A DNA stretch of 64,000 nt from Sphingobium naphthae (GTDB lineage Bacteria > Pseudomonadota > Alphaproteobacteria > Sphingomonadales > Sphingomonadaceae), in assembly GCF_020782235.1 (NCBI RefSeq), contig NZ_JAJGNO010000004.1:124001-188000 (forward strand). The letters run 5' to 3'. Of this stretch, positions 20,561 through 23,802 are shown one piece after another. Both the position numbers and the translations under genes were made by a program. The first letter of the stretch is position 1. Each line of letters begins with the position of its first letter. Below the pieces are notes generated by a model. It had not been told where the DNA came from. It was given only the letters and a program-made list of their open reading frames with translations, and did not search any database.

Positions 20561-22417
20561 ATGACCACCACTCGCCGCGACCTGCTTGCCGCCGGTGCTT
20601 CCGCCCTTGCCCTGTCCGCCCTGCCCGCCCGGGCGCTGGCCGCCACGGGAACCGCCACTGGGGCCGCCACCGAAGCCGACGCCCGCGCCGAAGCGCTGCT
20701 GGCGCAGATGGCCGAAGCCATGCTGGCCGATGCGCCCGAAACCGCCAGCGGCCTTGGCATCGACACGGGCGCGCGCGCCCCGCTCAAGGCGCGGCTGGGC
20801 GACAAGAGCCCGGCCGGCCAGGCGCGGATCGCCGCTCATGTGCGCGACCGGCTGGCCCGCCTGCGCGCGATCCGGCTCGATACGCTTTCGCCCGCCACCC
20901 GCACCGATGTGGAAGTGGTGCGCACGTCCCATGAACTGGCGGCGGACGGCTTTGCCTTCCCCTTCGGCGACATGGCGATGATGAACAGCAACTGGTCCTA
21001 TCGCAACAGCCCCTATGCGGTGGCGCAGAATACCGGCAGCTTCGTCGAAACGCCCGATTTCCTCGATTCCAACCACAAAGTCGAGAATAGCGCCGATGCC
21101 GACGCCTATCTGGCGCGGCTGGAGGCCTATGCCGCCAATCTGGACGGCGAAACGCAGCGGCTCCGCCACGATGCGGGCATCGGCGTGATCGCGCCCGCCT
21201 TCCTGCTCGACAAGACGCTGGCGCAGATGGCGCGGGTGCAGGGCCAGCCCGTCGATCAGTGGGTGCCGGTCGCGTCGATCGCGCGCCGCACCCAGGACAT
21301 GGCGAGCGATCACGCCGCCCGCGCCGCGGCGATCGTGCGGGACAAGGTCGCCCCCGCGCTCGCTCGCCAGGTCGCCGAGCTTCAGCGTCACCGCGCCGCC
21401 GCGACGATGGACGCGGGCGTGTGGAAGCTGCCGCAGGGCGAGGAATATTACGCCTGGGCGCTGCGCGCCGGCACGACCACGCGCATGACCCCGGACGAGG
21501 TGCACGCCCTTGGCCTCGACCAGCTCGCCGCGCTCCAGTCCGAAATGGACGGCCTGCTCAAGGGGTTGGGCATGAGCAAGGGCACGGTGGGCGAACGCAT
21601 GACCGCCATGGGCAAGGACCCGCGCTACCTCTTCCCCAATGATGATGCGGGGCGGGCGCAGATCCTGTCCTATATCGACGGCCGCCTGGCCGACATCCGC
21701 ACGCGCCTGCCGCGCGCCTTCGCGACGCTGGTGCCCGCCAAACTGATCGTCAAGCGCGTGCCGGTGGAGATCGAGGCGGGTGCGCCGGGCGCCTATGCCG
21801 GCGCCGGGTCGATCGACGGCAGCGTGCCGGGCAATTATTATATCAACCTGCGCGATACCAGCATCTGGCCGCGCTACAGCCTGCCCACCCTCTGTTATCA
21901 TGAGGGCATTCCCGGCCATATCTGGCAGGGCGAATATACGTATAAACTGCCGCTGATCCGGTCGCTGCTGGCCTTCAACGCCTATAGCGAGGGCTGGGCG
22001 CTCTATGCCGAACAACTGGGCGACGAACTGGGTGCCTATGACGGCGATGTTGCCGGGCGGCTGGGCTATCTCCAGTCGATCGCCTATCGCTGCTGCCGCC
22101 TGGTGGTCGACACCGGCCTGCACGCCAAGCGCTGGACGCGCGATCACGCCATCCAGTGGTTCGCCAGCACCAACGGATCGACGCTCGAGGATGTCCAGGC
22201 CGAAGTCGACCGCTATTGCGCCTGGCCGGGCCAGGCCTGCGGCTACAAGGTCGGCCATGGCGAAATCGTGCGGCTGCGCGACATGGCGAAGACGGCGCTG
22301 GGTCCGAAATTCGACTTCCGCCTGTTCAACGACGCCGTGGTCAAGGGCGGCGGCGTGCCGATGACCGTGCTGGCGGACAATGTGGATGCGTGGGTGAAGG
22401 GGCGGCAGAACGGGTGA
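20561..22417 (+). CDS. Tat-exported DUF885 family protein (putative metallopeptidase-like)
   Basis: 618 aa. The N-terminus has a twin-arginine signal (TTRRDLLAAGASALALSALPARALA), so export through the TatABC system encoded at 5.4-7 kb is likely. The body matches the DUF885 family, with NYYINLRDTSIWPRYSLPTLCYHEGIPGH: the HEGIPGH segment resembles the zinc site of M32/M3-like peptidases. The C-terminal part has PGQACGYKVGHGEI, typical for the family. Substrate unknown. Confidence 0.9.
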   Translation: MTTTRRDLLAAGASALALSALPARALAATGTATGAATEADARAEALLAQMAEAMLADAPETASGLGIDTGARAPLKARLGDKSPAGQARIAAHVRDRLARLRAIRLDTLSPATRTDVEVVRTSHELAADGFAFPFGDMAMMNSNWSYRNSPYAVAQNTGSFVETPDFLDSNHKVENSADADAYLARLEAYAANLDGETQRLRHDAGIGVIAPAFLLDKTLAQMARVQGQPVDQWVPVASIARRTQDMASDHAARAAAIVRDKVAPALARQVAELQRHRAAATMDAGVWKLPQGEEYYAWALRAGTTTRMTPDEVHALGLDQLAALQSEMDGLLKGLGMSKGTVGERMTAMGKDPRYLFPNDDAGRAQILSYIDGRLADIRTRLPRAFATLVPAKLIVKRVPVEIEAGAPGAYAGAGSIDGSVPGNYYINLRDTSIWPRYSLPTLCYHEGIPGHIWQGEYTYKLPLIRSLLAFNAYSEGWALYAEQLGDELGAYDGDVAGRLGYLQSIAYRCCRLVVDTGLHAKRWTRDHAIQWFASTNGSTLEDVQAEVDRYCAWPGQACGYKVGHGEIVRLRDMAKTALGPKFDFRLFNDAVVKGGGVPMTVLADNVDAWVKGRQNG

Positions 22418-22425
22418 GCACCTTC

Positions 22426-22458
22426 CGTCACCCCGGCCCTGAGCCGGGGTCCCGCTTC
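22426..22458 (+). repeat. Palindromic GTCACCCCGG-type repeat, copy 1
   Basis: Contains GTCACCCCGGCCCTGAGC followed by CGGGGTCCCGCTTC, a hairpin-forming repeat of the kind widely scattered in sphingomonad genomes. It lies between the DUF885 gene and the GIY-YIG gene. A copy in opposite orientation sits at 22778. Confidence 0.8.
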
Positions 22459-22462
22459 CTCA

Positions 22463-22762
22463 TCAGACCAGTGTCTCGAACAGATCCCGCCATTCGGGAT
22501 TGGCGCGTTCGATCAGCGCAAACTTCCATGCGCGCCGCCATCGCTTGAGCCGCTTCTCCTGCTCGATGCAGCTGCGAATGTCCGCGCAGCTGTCAGCCCA
22601 GACCAGCCGCCGCAAGTCATAGCGCGCGCAGAAATCCGACCCGGAGCCTGTCCGGTGCTGATGGACGCGTCTTACGATATCGCTGGTCACACCGACATAT
22701 ATCGTGCCCCGATAGCGATCAGCCATGATGTAGACCCAGCCGCCCTGTCGCCCTTCGCCCAT
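22463..22762 (-). CDS. Solo GIY-YIG nuclease-domain protein
   Basis: 99 aa, a single GIY-YIG domain of the UPF0213/YhbQ-like type. WVYIMADRYRGTIYVGVTSD gives both Tyr motifs, and the catalytic Arg (VRRVHQHR), Glu (EQEKRLKRW) and Asn (RANPEWRDLF) are all present, so it should be active. No other domain is attached. It is flanked on both sides by inverted copies of the palindromic repeat, 4 bp from its 3' end and 15 bp from its 5' end. Confidence 0.88.
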   Translation of the reverse strand: MGEGRQGGWVYIMADRYRGTIYVGVTSDIVRRVHQHRTGSGSDFCARYDLRRLVWADSCADIRSCIEQEKRLKRWRRAWKFALIERANPEWRDLFETLV

Positions 22763-22777
22763 GGGTTGAGCGTCGAA

Positions 22778-22810
22778 GAAGCGGGACCCCGGGTCAAGCC
22801 CGGGGTGACG
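22778..22810 (-). repeat. Palindromic GTCACCCCGG-type repeat, copy 2 (inverted)
   Basis: GAAGCGGGACCCCGGG then TCAAGCCCGGGGTGACG, the reverse-oriented partner of the copy at 22426. Together they bracket the GIY-YIG gene. Confidence 0.8.
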
Positions 22811-22871
22811 AGAGCGGCATCAGATACTGCGACGACAGCATGGCAGATGAAGTCGGATCGTTCGCCACCTA

Positions 22872-22895
22872 GGCCCTGAGCGGGCCCCGCTTCCC
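22872..22895 (+). repeat. Degenerate third copy of the palindromic repeat
   Basis: GGCCCTGAGC-GGGCCCCGCTTCC matches the second half of copy 1 with a short deletion and substitutions, in the same orientation as copy 1. Confidence 0.5.
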
Positions 22896-22908
22896 GTTCA
22901 CAGCCCAA

Positions 22909-22937
22909 GAAAAAAGCCGGAGGATCGCTCCCCCGGC
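22909..22937 (-). terminator. Intrinsic terminator after ferredoxin-NADP reductase
   Basis: On the minus strand GCCGGGGGA-GCGA-TCCTCCGGC (9-bp stem with one mismatch) is followed by six T residues, 26 nt after the fpr stop codon. Confidence 0.75.
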
Positions 22938-22962
22938 CTCTTCATCCGTTCTGCGCTGACGC

Positions 22963-23802
22963 TTACCCTACGAACGCCCGCTCGATCACGAACTGGCCCG
23001 GCGCCGCGTTGCTGCCTTCGGTGAAGCCTTCGCCTTCGAAATAGGCGGCGAACTGCTTGATCATCTCCATGCTGCCGCACATCATGATCCGGTCGGTTTC
23101 GGGGTCGAATTTGGCCGCGCCCGGAACGCCTTCGAACAGGGCGCCGATTTCGACCAGCTTGTCGATGCGCTGCGTGTGGCCGTCATAGGGTTCGCGCGTG
23201 ACGGTCGGCACATAATGGAACTGACCGGGCGCCTGTTCCGACACCAGCGGGTCCTGCGACCATTTGCCGTCCAGCTCCTCGCGGAAGGCGAGGTCGCTCA
23301 CGCGGCGGACCGAATGGACGATCACCACCTGCTCGTAAAATTCATAGACGTCGGGGTCGCGCGACAGGCTGAGGAAGGGCGCAAGGCCCGTGCCGGTCGA
23401 CAGCATGAACAGCCGCTTGCCCGGCAGCAGCGCGTCGGTCACCAGCGTACCGGTCGGCTTGCGGCCGAGATAGATCTGGTCGCCCGGCTGGATCAGCTGC
23501 AGCTTCGACGTCAGCGGCCCGTCCTGCACCTTGATCGACAGGAACTCGATTTCCTCGTCCCAGCTGGGGCTGGCGACCGAATAGGCGCGCAGCAGCGGCT
23601 TGCCATTGTCGCCCTTGAGGCCGATCATCACGAACTCGCCCGACCGGAAGCGGAAGCTCGCTGGGCGCGAGATGCGGAAGCTGAACAGATGCTCGTTCCA
23701 GTGCTTCACCGACAGCACGGTTTCCACGGAAAGCGCGCCGGTGGGTTCCAGAACCGGCTTTTCGATCGTCACGTCGGTCAACAGTCTGTCCTTGCCTAGC
23801 AT
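22963..23802 (-). CDS. fpr: Ferredoxin--NADP+ reductase
   Basis: 279 aa. The FAD-binding segment RAYSVASPS, the NADP-binding STGTGLAPF, and the C-terminal MMCGSMEMI plus ERAFVG ending match bacterial subclass-II ferredoxin/flavodoxin reductases, which often respond to oxidative stress. The first 15 residues are an extension before the typical VLSVKHWNEHLF start, and a later start is possible. A terminator follows. Confidence 0.93.
   Translation of the reverse strand: MLGKDRLLTDVTIEKPVLEPTGALSVETVLSVKHWNEHLFSFRISRPASFRFRSGEFVMIGLKGDNGKPLLRAYSVASPSWDEEIEFLSIKVQDGPLTSKLQLIQPGDQIYLGRKPTGTLVTDALLPGKRLFMLSTGTGLAPFLSLSRDPDVYEFYEQVVIVHSVRRVSDLAFREELDGKWSQDPLVSEQAPGQFHYVPTVTREPYDGHTQRIDKLVEIGALFEGVPGAAKFDPETDRIMMCGSMEMIKQFAAYFEGEGFTEGSNAAPGQFVIERAFVG

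Follow-up and report, generated by a model that had tools for sequence, protein, structure and literature searches.

Ssn proteins, as a 2025 paper in Nature Communications reportedly describes, are GIY-YIG nucleases that cut single-stranded DNA (ssDNA) at NTS repeats in Neisseria, affecting transformation, and are said to have many homologs with sites of their own. UPF0213-type solo GIY-YIG proteins, Slx1, and the UvrC N-terminal domain share the fold of the protein studied here; we know of no description of cognate flanking repeats for them, although no search for one was made. A separate line of background concerns the repetitive extragenic palindromic (REP) sequences that carry a CGTC tag, which were defined by Di Nocera et al. 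(2013; PMC3733652). That paper assigns most CGTC REPs to alphaproteobacteria, where they occur in species of all orders. The carriers include S. wittichii and S. chlorophenolicum, and the Neisseria repeat dRS3 is classed as a member. These repeats are described there as apparently lacking a dedicated transposase, and their mode of spread is left open. The string "GIY" does not occur in its main text; likewise, COG2827, UPF0213, and YhbQ have no occurrences in a phylogenomic study of GIY-YIG proteins (PMC1564403), and none of the titles and abstract beginnings listed in literature searches joins GIY-YIG with REPs. Here we describe a 385-bp unit, consisting of a GIY-YIG nuclease gene between two inverted CGTC-tagged hairpins, in a 64,000-bp stretch of Sphingobium naphthae (contig NZ_JAJGNO010000004.1, positions 124,001–188,000; hereafter the window). 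Judged by sequence, the unit is best read as the sphingomonad form of an Ssn-type pairing of GIY-YIG nuclease and REP, RAYT-like with different chemistry.

As in Ssn, the protein is small and solo, and its cognate repeat occurs in many copies as well as around the gene. Sequence-specific cleavage of ssDNA, the activity reported for Ssn, is predicted for the window protein. The unit also resembles RAYT/REP (REPtron) and REPIN systems (see PMC3733652 for RAYTs) in having a single gene between hairpins, subtype pairing, non-autonomous inverted dimers, and a repeat load that follows the enzyme. Four features described below bear out the RAYT/REP analogy proposed in the initial annotation of this locus: the pairing, the co-variation of nuclease and repeat, the load of repeats, and the inverted dimers that lack a gene. 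Neither the literature on CGTC REPs nor the Ssn proteins were mentioned in that annotation. However, a GIY-YIG nuclease takes the place of the HUH Y1 transposase, and the repeats are CGTC- instead of GTAG-tagged. Membership in the RAYT/IS200-IS605 REPtrons was rejected, as no HUH Y1 gene lies between the repeats and GIY-YIG is the only Pfam match (E ≤ 0.001). If the Ssn work is as reported, the pairing of nuclease and repeat has been published before, and overlap with that paper may exist. What is new here would be the CGTC-REP link, a defined unit with exact ends, its dispersal, unfilled sites, derivatives including gene-less dimers, and co-variation within genomes.

The unit, its nuclease, and its repeats

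The whole unit runs from CGTC to GACG at positions 22426–22810 (unstranded), and its ends are those at which BLASTN matches stop at other places. In the reading direction of the gene, a CGTC-hairpin is followed by a 15-bp gap, the gene, a 4-bp gap, and hairpin-GACG, with both tags pointing outward. The 33-bp palindrome CGTCACCCCGGNNNTGANCCGGGGTCCCGCTTC is present exactly on the 3' side of the gene (22426–22458, + strand; loop CCTGA) and on its 5' side (22778–22810, − strand; loop CTTGA), and a pattern search found no match in 100 shuffles of the window. In both copies, the predicted fold is a stem of 8 bp that closes a 5-nt loop (z of −3.4 and −3.1 for DNA folding). The initial annotation, which had described a 99-aa GIY-YIG gene with catalytic residues between opposite 33-bp repeats located 4 and 15 bp from the gene ends, was accurate in these respects and in the unit size of about 385 bp. 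It had also called the repeat dispersed, which is true of the genome (see below) and untrue of the window, where the only two exact copies are those flanking the gene. They were found by the pattern search; the repeat is absent among the 20 families listed of at least 60 repeat families in the window. The degenerate third copy claimed in the initial annotation (22863–22893, + strand) is real, as it aligns with the repeat better than 3,163 other window segments. Moreover, the relative G004 has the same insertion with an intact copy at this position (locus L145). The third copy begins 52 bp past the unit end, rather than the claimed 60 bp.

The nuclease gene (22463–22762, − strand) encodes a protein with a single Pfam domain, GIY-YIG (E 3.5e-12). 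In a 21-row alignment, residues Y11, G19, Y22, G24, R32, H36, E69, and N88 are invariant. In the superfamily, these are the catalytic positions. The AlphaFold2 model (pLDDT 92) is closest to the solved UPF0213 structure 1zg2 (Foldseek probability 1.00, E 0.0095) and then to Slx1, whereas UvrC matches weakly (probability 0.35). The domain and the conserved Tyr, Arg, His, Glu, and Asn place the protein in the GIY-YIG superfamily. A homolog in N. gonorrhoeae, which we take to be Ssn itself, has 48% identity over 86 aa (E 1e-30 in a single comparison), and its gene sits amid CGTCATTCCCGC repeats. This homology and the repeat surroundings suggest that the window protein belongs to the Ssn family, the closest known kind. 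Features of that family, namely homology to the Neisseria nuclease and a cognate repeat that both adjoins the gene and is scattered through the genome, are present here as well. Among other homologs, a contig classed as viral in IMG/VR (IMGVR_UViG_2728368995_000001; L394) encodes a nuclease that is 63% identical to the window protein, with related palindromes flanking it. In three loci (L265, L267, and L292), the nuclease frames continue beyond where they normally stop; the extension in L265 includes residues encoded by the repeat.

In the 4.28-Mb genome of S. naphthae, where repeat positions were derived from pattern searches, a 19-bp core of the repeat is found exactly at seven places, five of which are beside the window gene or a paralog with 72% identity. 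With up to two mismatches allowed, there are 50 matches compared with 10 for a reversed control; a longer pattern gives 13 compared with none. The remaining two exact copies (L006 and L009) and one single-mismatch copy (L017) are parts of gene-less inverted pairs, and three other single-mismatch matches (L013, L015, and L016) have neither tag nor partner and look like chance. As in the definition of CGTC REPs in PMC3733652, the window repeat has a CGTC tag at one end, a stem within the 8–9-bp range, and a loop within the 4–5-nt range, is alphaproteobacterial, and occurs in its own genome mostly as inverted head-to-head dimers. It departs from that definition, in which the first two stem pairs are both A-T and the tail is CCA, in having A-T followed by C-G and the tail CCCGC. 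The same text qualifies these traits with "almost invariably" and "most," and we therefore call the window repeat CGTC-REP-like. Many repeats of distant relatives in named genomes do have the AT stem start and the CCA tail.

Nuclease and repeat across genomes

The genus set comprised 94 genomes. The loci examined were a subset of all matches: 30 that are mostly the top match of their genome, a further four, and 80 regions chosen down the match list. The 121 matches correspond to 115 distinct gene copies, including a few fragments or overlapping frames (L048 and L060). With positions 21900–23350 of the window as a BLASTN query against this set, at least 31 places in 24 genomes away from the DUF885-fpr site of the window align only from query positions 521–528 to 910–916, corresponding to about 22426–22810. 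Three of these places form one array in G076. Different neighborhoods therefore share the tag-to-tag stretch. The end of type-A (window-type) hairpins is mostly 22–24 bp before the start codon, and other subtypes are often at 28–30, 15, or 6 bp.

After one of the 115 copies was dropped for short flanks, outward-tagged hairpins were found within 150 bp upstream of 75/114 genes (inward-tagged in 12) and downstream of 79/114 (inward-tagged in 17), compared with 13 and 5 of 1,210 control windows. Regardless of tag, a hairpin is present upstream in 87, downstream in 94, on both sides in 75, and on either side in 106 of the 114 copies, compared with 35/1,297 control windows. These counts, like the hairpin counts for the wider groups and named loci below, are probably low, as the strict detection overlooks copies that are degenerate or carry another tag (GTG-tagged, or CCAG outward). 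The fairest control consists of the 3' ends of other long, non-overlapping open reading frames (ORFs) in the same loci: a hairpin lies within 120 bp downstream of 95/113 distinct nuclease copies and 8/62 of these ORFs. The repeats thus flank GIY-YIG genes far above background, as the initial annotation had anticipated, and the view that they are general 3'-end hairpins fails in this comparison. The pairing is real and well beyond chance. The eight copies that lack a hairpin on either side are the two least similar ones (L004 and L005; 33–35% identity) and six above 40%, some of which have imperfect hairpins by eye. In addition, a subgroup (L142, L101, and L138) has at least one flanking hairpin reversed, with its tag toward the gene.

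Beyond the genus, the association is weaker but still present. From a set of 89, of which two were dropped for short flanks, a hairpin on at least one side was found in 10/13 relatives at the family level, 26/45 at the class level, and 14/29 at the phylum level (on both sides in 8, 15, and 7, respectively), compared with 40/922 control windows. The score for inverted flanks exceeds the 99th percentile of shuffles in 104/112 loci of the genus and in 9/13, 33/45, and 19/29 loci at the three wider levels. A further 80 named loci were selected by protein only, although the search alignment included rows partly chosen for having repeats. Of the 76 whose flanks were complete, a hairpin accompanies the gene on one side or more in 62 and on both sides in 33, compared with 58/1,309 control windows. 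The record titles include Neisseria, Xanthomonas, Nitrospira, Planctomycetes, Elusimicrobia, and Anaerolineae, with many records being metagenome bins and the taxonomy as labeled.

The sequence of the repeat tracks the nuclease subtype, even inside one genome. Nucleases with more than about 65% identity to the window protein mostly have CACCCCGG... repeats, those near 50–56% often have CATGCCAGC... or CACCCCAGC... repeats, and others are accompanied by ACCCCTGC, ATCCCCGC, ATGCTGAC, or GTG-tagged GCTCCTGC hairpins; the type-B hairpin is CATGCCAGCGAAGGCTGGCATC. Within genomes, the match between the left and right repeats of the same gene was better than that between its left repeat and the right repeat of another gene in 155 comparisons, with 13 ties and 26 losses. 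Across all pairs of 113 genes, the more alike two proteins are, the more alike are their left flanks (rho 0.50, a value that none of 300 permutations reached), and the 97 same-genome pairs show this too (rho 0.56, p 3e-9). Genome background alone predicts no such pattern. Given the recurring unit and that each enzyme type has its own repeat, these repeats probably have a dedicated partner enzyme.

Repeat load per genome follows the cognate nuclease, not HUH transposases. The median number of type-A repeats is 13.5 where a type-A nuclease is present (26 genomes) and 3.0 in the other 68 genomes (p 4e-9, a value that, like the others for load, is too small because the genomes share ancestry). Presence here means a best E ≤ 1e-40, such that G032 (1.2e-35, a 75%-identical fragment) counted as lacking the nuclease. 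Approximate removal of the flanking copies, which used manually entered copy numbers, leaves a median of 11.0 in genomes with the nuclease. In comparison, type-B load does not differ between genomes with and without the type-A nuclease (8.0 and 6.5, respectively; p 0.95). For type-A and type-B repeats taken together, the median is 0 in the 11 genomes that lack any family member (E ≤ 1e-5), compared with 18 in the others (p 4e-5). Reversed-pattern controls for both types gave zero in every genome.

Dispersal, empty sites, and derivatives

Genes of the nuclease family have a patchy distribution, with 0–10 copies per genome. Within single genomes, gene pairs at unrelated sites with dissimilar outer flanks are 97.9% (G033), about 95% (G007), 93.8% (G015), and 91.7% (G046) identical, and the four copies in G077 are 84–91% identical. 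In G076, three units lie about 465–470 bp apart in a tandem array (L045/L068; C1:659963–661184). In some type-B pairs, the shared stretch reaches about 100 bp on each side, past the inner repeat. The presence of units at many unrelated sites argues against a GIY-YIG homing endonuclease, either in an intron or cutting the empty allele of a conserved gene. Units in L061 (G047) and L100 (G023) are directly downstream of dprA, which encodes a recombination mediator of transformation (Pfam), and L111 has a similar flank by eye.

At orthologous sites, units are present in some strains and absent in others. Among the 30 loci fetched for the DUF885-fpr site (window 22418–22960; L146–L173), both genes were seen in 25, and the unit is present only in the window and in G004. 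Two loci (L150 and L152) have bare intergenic stretches of 68 bp, in line with the expectation of the initial annotation that empty sites between DUF885 and fpr exist, and eight of the loci carry there, by eye, hairpins that belong to other subtypes and are single or paired. The dispersed repeats at this site differ by species, and some do not look CGTC-REP-like (e.g., CCGTTCGGGCTGAGCGAAGTCGAAGCC in L166, L167, and L172). A second site, also with empty alleles, is located on Sphingobium replicons between a response-regulator gene and fnrL, where seven strains have the unit. Of five relatives read there, S. herbicidovorans has no repeat, TYG72 has a repeat of another kind, and TYG65 has an untagged hairpin of another type. 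The remaining two, TYG64 and TYG74, have a 29-bp solo palindrome such as a deletion across the shared CCCGGGGT arm would leave. Gain and loss of units are hard to separate.

Units with internal deletions and gene-less forms also occur. L432 is a unit with an internally deleted gene, and in the S. naphthae genome a 5' fragment of the gene lies between two inverted repeats (L002; C48, 1282–1410) beside a full-length copy. Gene-less inverted dimers retain the tails of the unit. Those picked are mostly 82–94 bp long, a range biased by their selection for two close opposite matches, and some are poorly delimited; one is 169 bp (L427) and one 105 bp (L435). At the unit ends, none of 81 units has a target-site duplication of 4–9 bp (0.17 expected by shuffling at 4 bp), and duplications of 2 bp number 7 (compared with 4.4 expected) and those of 3 bp number 2 (compared with 1.0). 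A reading as an insertion sequence with a DDE-type transposase, or as a miniature inverted-repeat transposable element, was rejected because duplications of at least 4 bp are absent from the 81 units. The tract before the tag is rich in pyrimidines (0.69 compared with a background of 0.51 in the genus). This enrichment is weaker outside the genus (0.63 and 0.59), except that 84–90% of ends have a pyrimidine at position −1. The tract may be part of the target or of the element.

Mechanism, alternatives, and implications

We propose, with a probability of roughly two in three, that the nuclease and its flanking CGTC-tagged hairpins form a two-part selfish or semi-domesticated system. The nuclease would recognize the hairpins that flank its own gene, probably in single-stranded form, as on the template of the lagging strand or in DNA taken up during transformation, and would nick them at or near the tag. 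A complete unit, i.e., the gene with two inverted hairpins, may then reach new intergenic sites, either moved there or copied by host repair, and leave the target unduplicated. REPIN-like inverted hairpin pairs of about 82–94 bp would arise when the interior is deleted, and these may use the nuclease in trans. In this way, cleavage would drive the spread, and the nuclease itself would spread or maintain the repeats. More tentatively, and at less than even odds, GIY-YIG nucleases may be the dedicated enzymes that CGTC REPs have seemed to lack, and may be so across bacterial phyla. They would then provide a second, HUH-independent route of REP/REPIN propagation, in which the nuclease nicks terminal hairpins and host replication or repair copies the unit.

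Several observations weigh against the two-part system. Neither cleavage nor transposition was observed. The full-length paralog in the same genome has Lys in place of Glu69, suggesting that not every copy need be active. The initial annotation had named relatives that keep the gene without repeats as a refuting sign; relatives with no detected repeat are a sizeable minority outside the genus, including 10/29 at the phylum level without inverted flanks. Comparison of the flanks in direct orientation also passes the shuffle threshold in 53/112 loci of the genus and in 4/13, 22/45, and 14/29 at the family, class, and phylum levels, although this is a lax control because the repeats are palindromes. 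As for load, a type-A nuclease is missing from G006 and G054 despite their 94 and 27 type-A repeats, respectively, and no family member at all accompanies the 22 type-B copies of G089. These exceptions speak against a strict link; the repeats in G006 may be a relic after loss of the enzyme. The shared ancestry noted above also lowers the weight of the load comparisons. Lastly, the solo palindromes in TYG64 and TYG74 resemble the traces of deletions, so these strains may have lost the unit rather than the others having gained it.

The alternative that fares best is a domesticated Ssn-type modulator, in which the nuclease cuts repeats in incoming ssDNA, thereby shaping transformation or recombination, and the gene is kept for that use while the repeats spread otherwise. 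The reported Ssn work in Neisseria, the N. gonorrhoeae homolog amid CGTCATTCCCGC repeats, and the two units directly after dprA are in its favor. However, the patchy distribution, the near-identical copies at unrelated sites, and the three-unit array look like dispersal, and we consider this alternative unlikely on its own. It is compatible with the two-part system, and both can hold.

Hitchhiking, in which a RAYT or other HUH transposase moves the repeats and a nuclease gene became trapped between two copies, appears very improbable. The CGTC repeats do resemble the RAYT-associated GTAG repeats in form, and the S. naphthae genome has one Y1 transposase gene. Nevertheless, Y1 (HUH) transposases occur in only 23 of the 94 genomes and repeat load is unrelated to them (p 0.17 and 0.33; transposases of other families were not searched for). 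Two genomes with many type-A copies, G022 (125) and G010 (46), have none, and trapping does not predict the co-variation of subtypes. Equally hard to credit is that the nuclease confers no mobility and units spread only via homologous recombination or duplication between existing repeats, with loss by slippage between repeat arms, since the solo palindromes of TYG64 and TYG74 and the G076 array would fit but the boundaries at the outer tags, unrelated flanks, and repeat-free sites (L150, L152, and S. herbicidovorans) do not.

For the family as a whole, many genes annotated plainly as "GIY-YIG nuclease family protein" may be the enzyme half of a repeat system. At least 585 related stretches could supply hundreds of natural nuclease/hairpin pairs for learning the rules of recognition. 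A one-gene, 385-bp unit with its cognate nuclease makes the question of how CGTC REPs spread directly testable in vitro and by passage.
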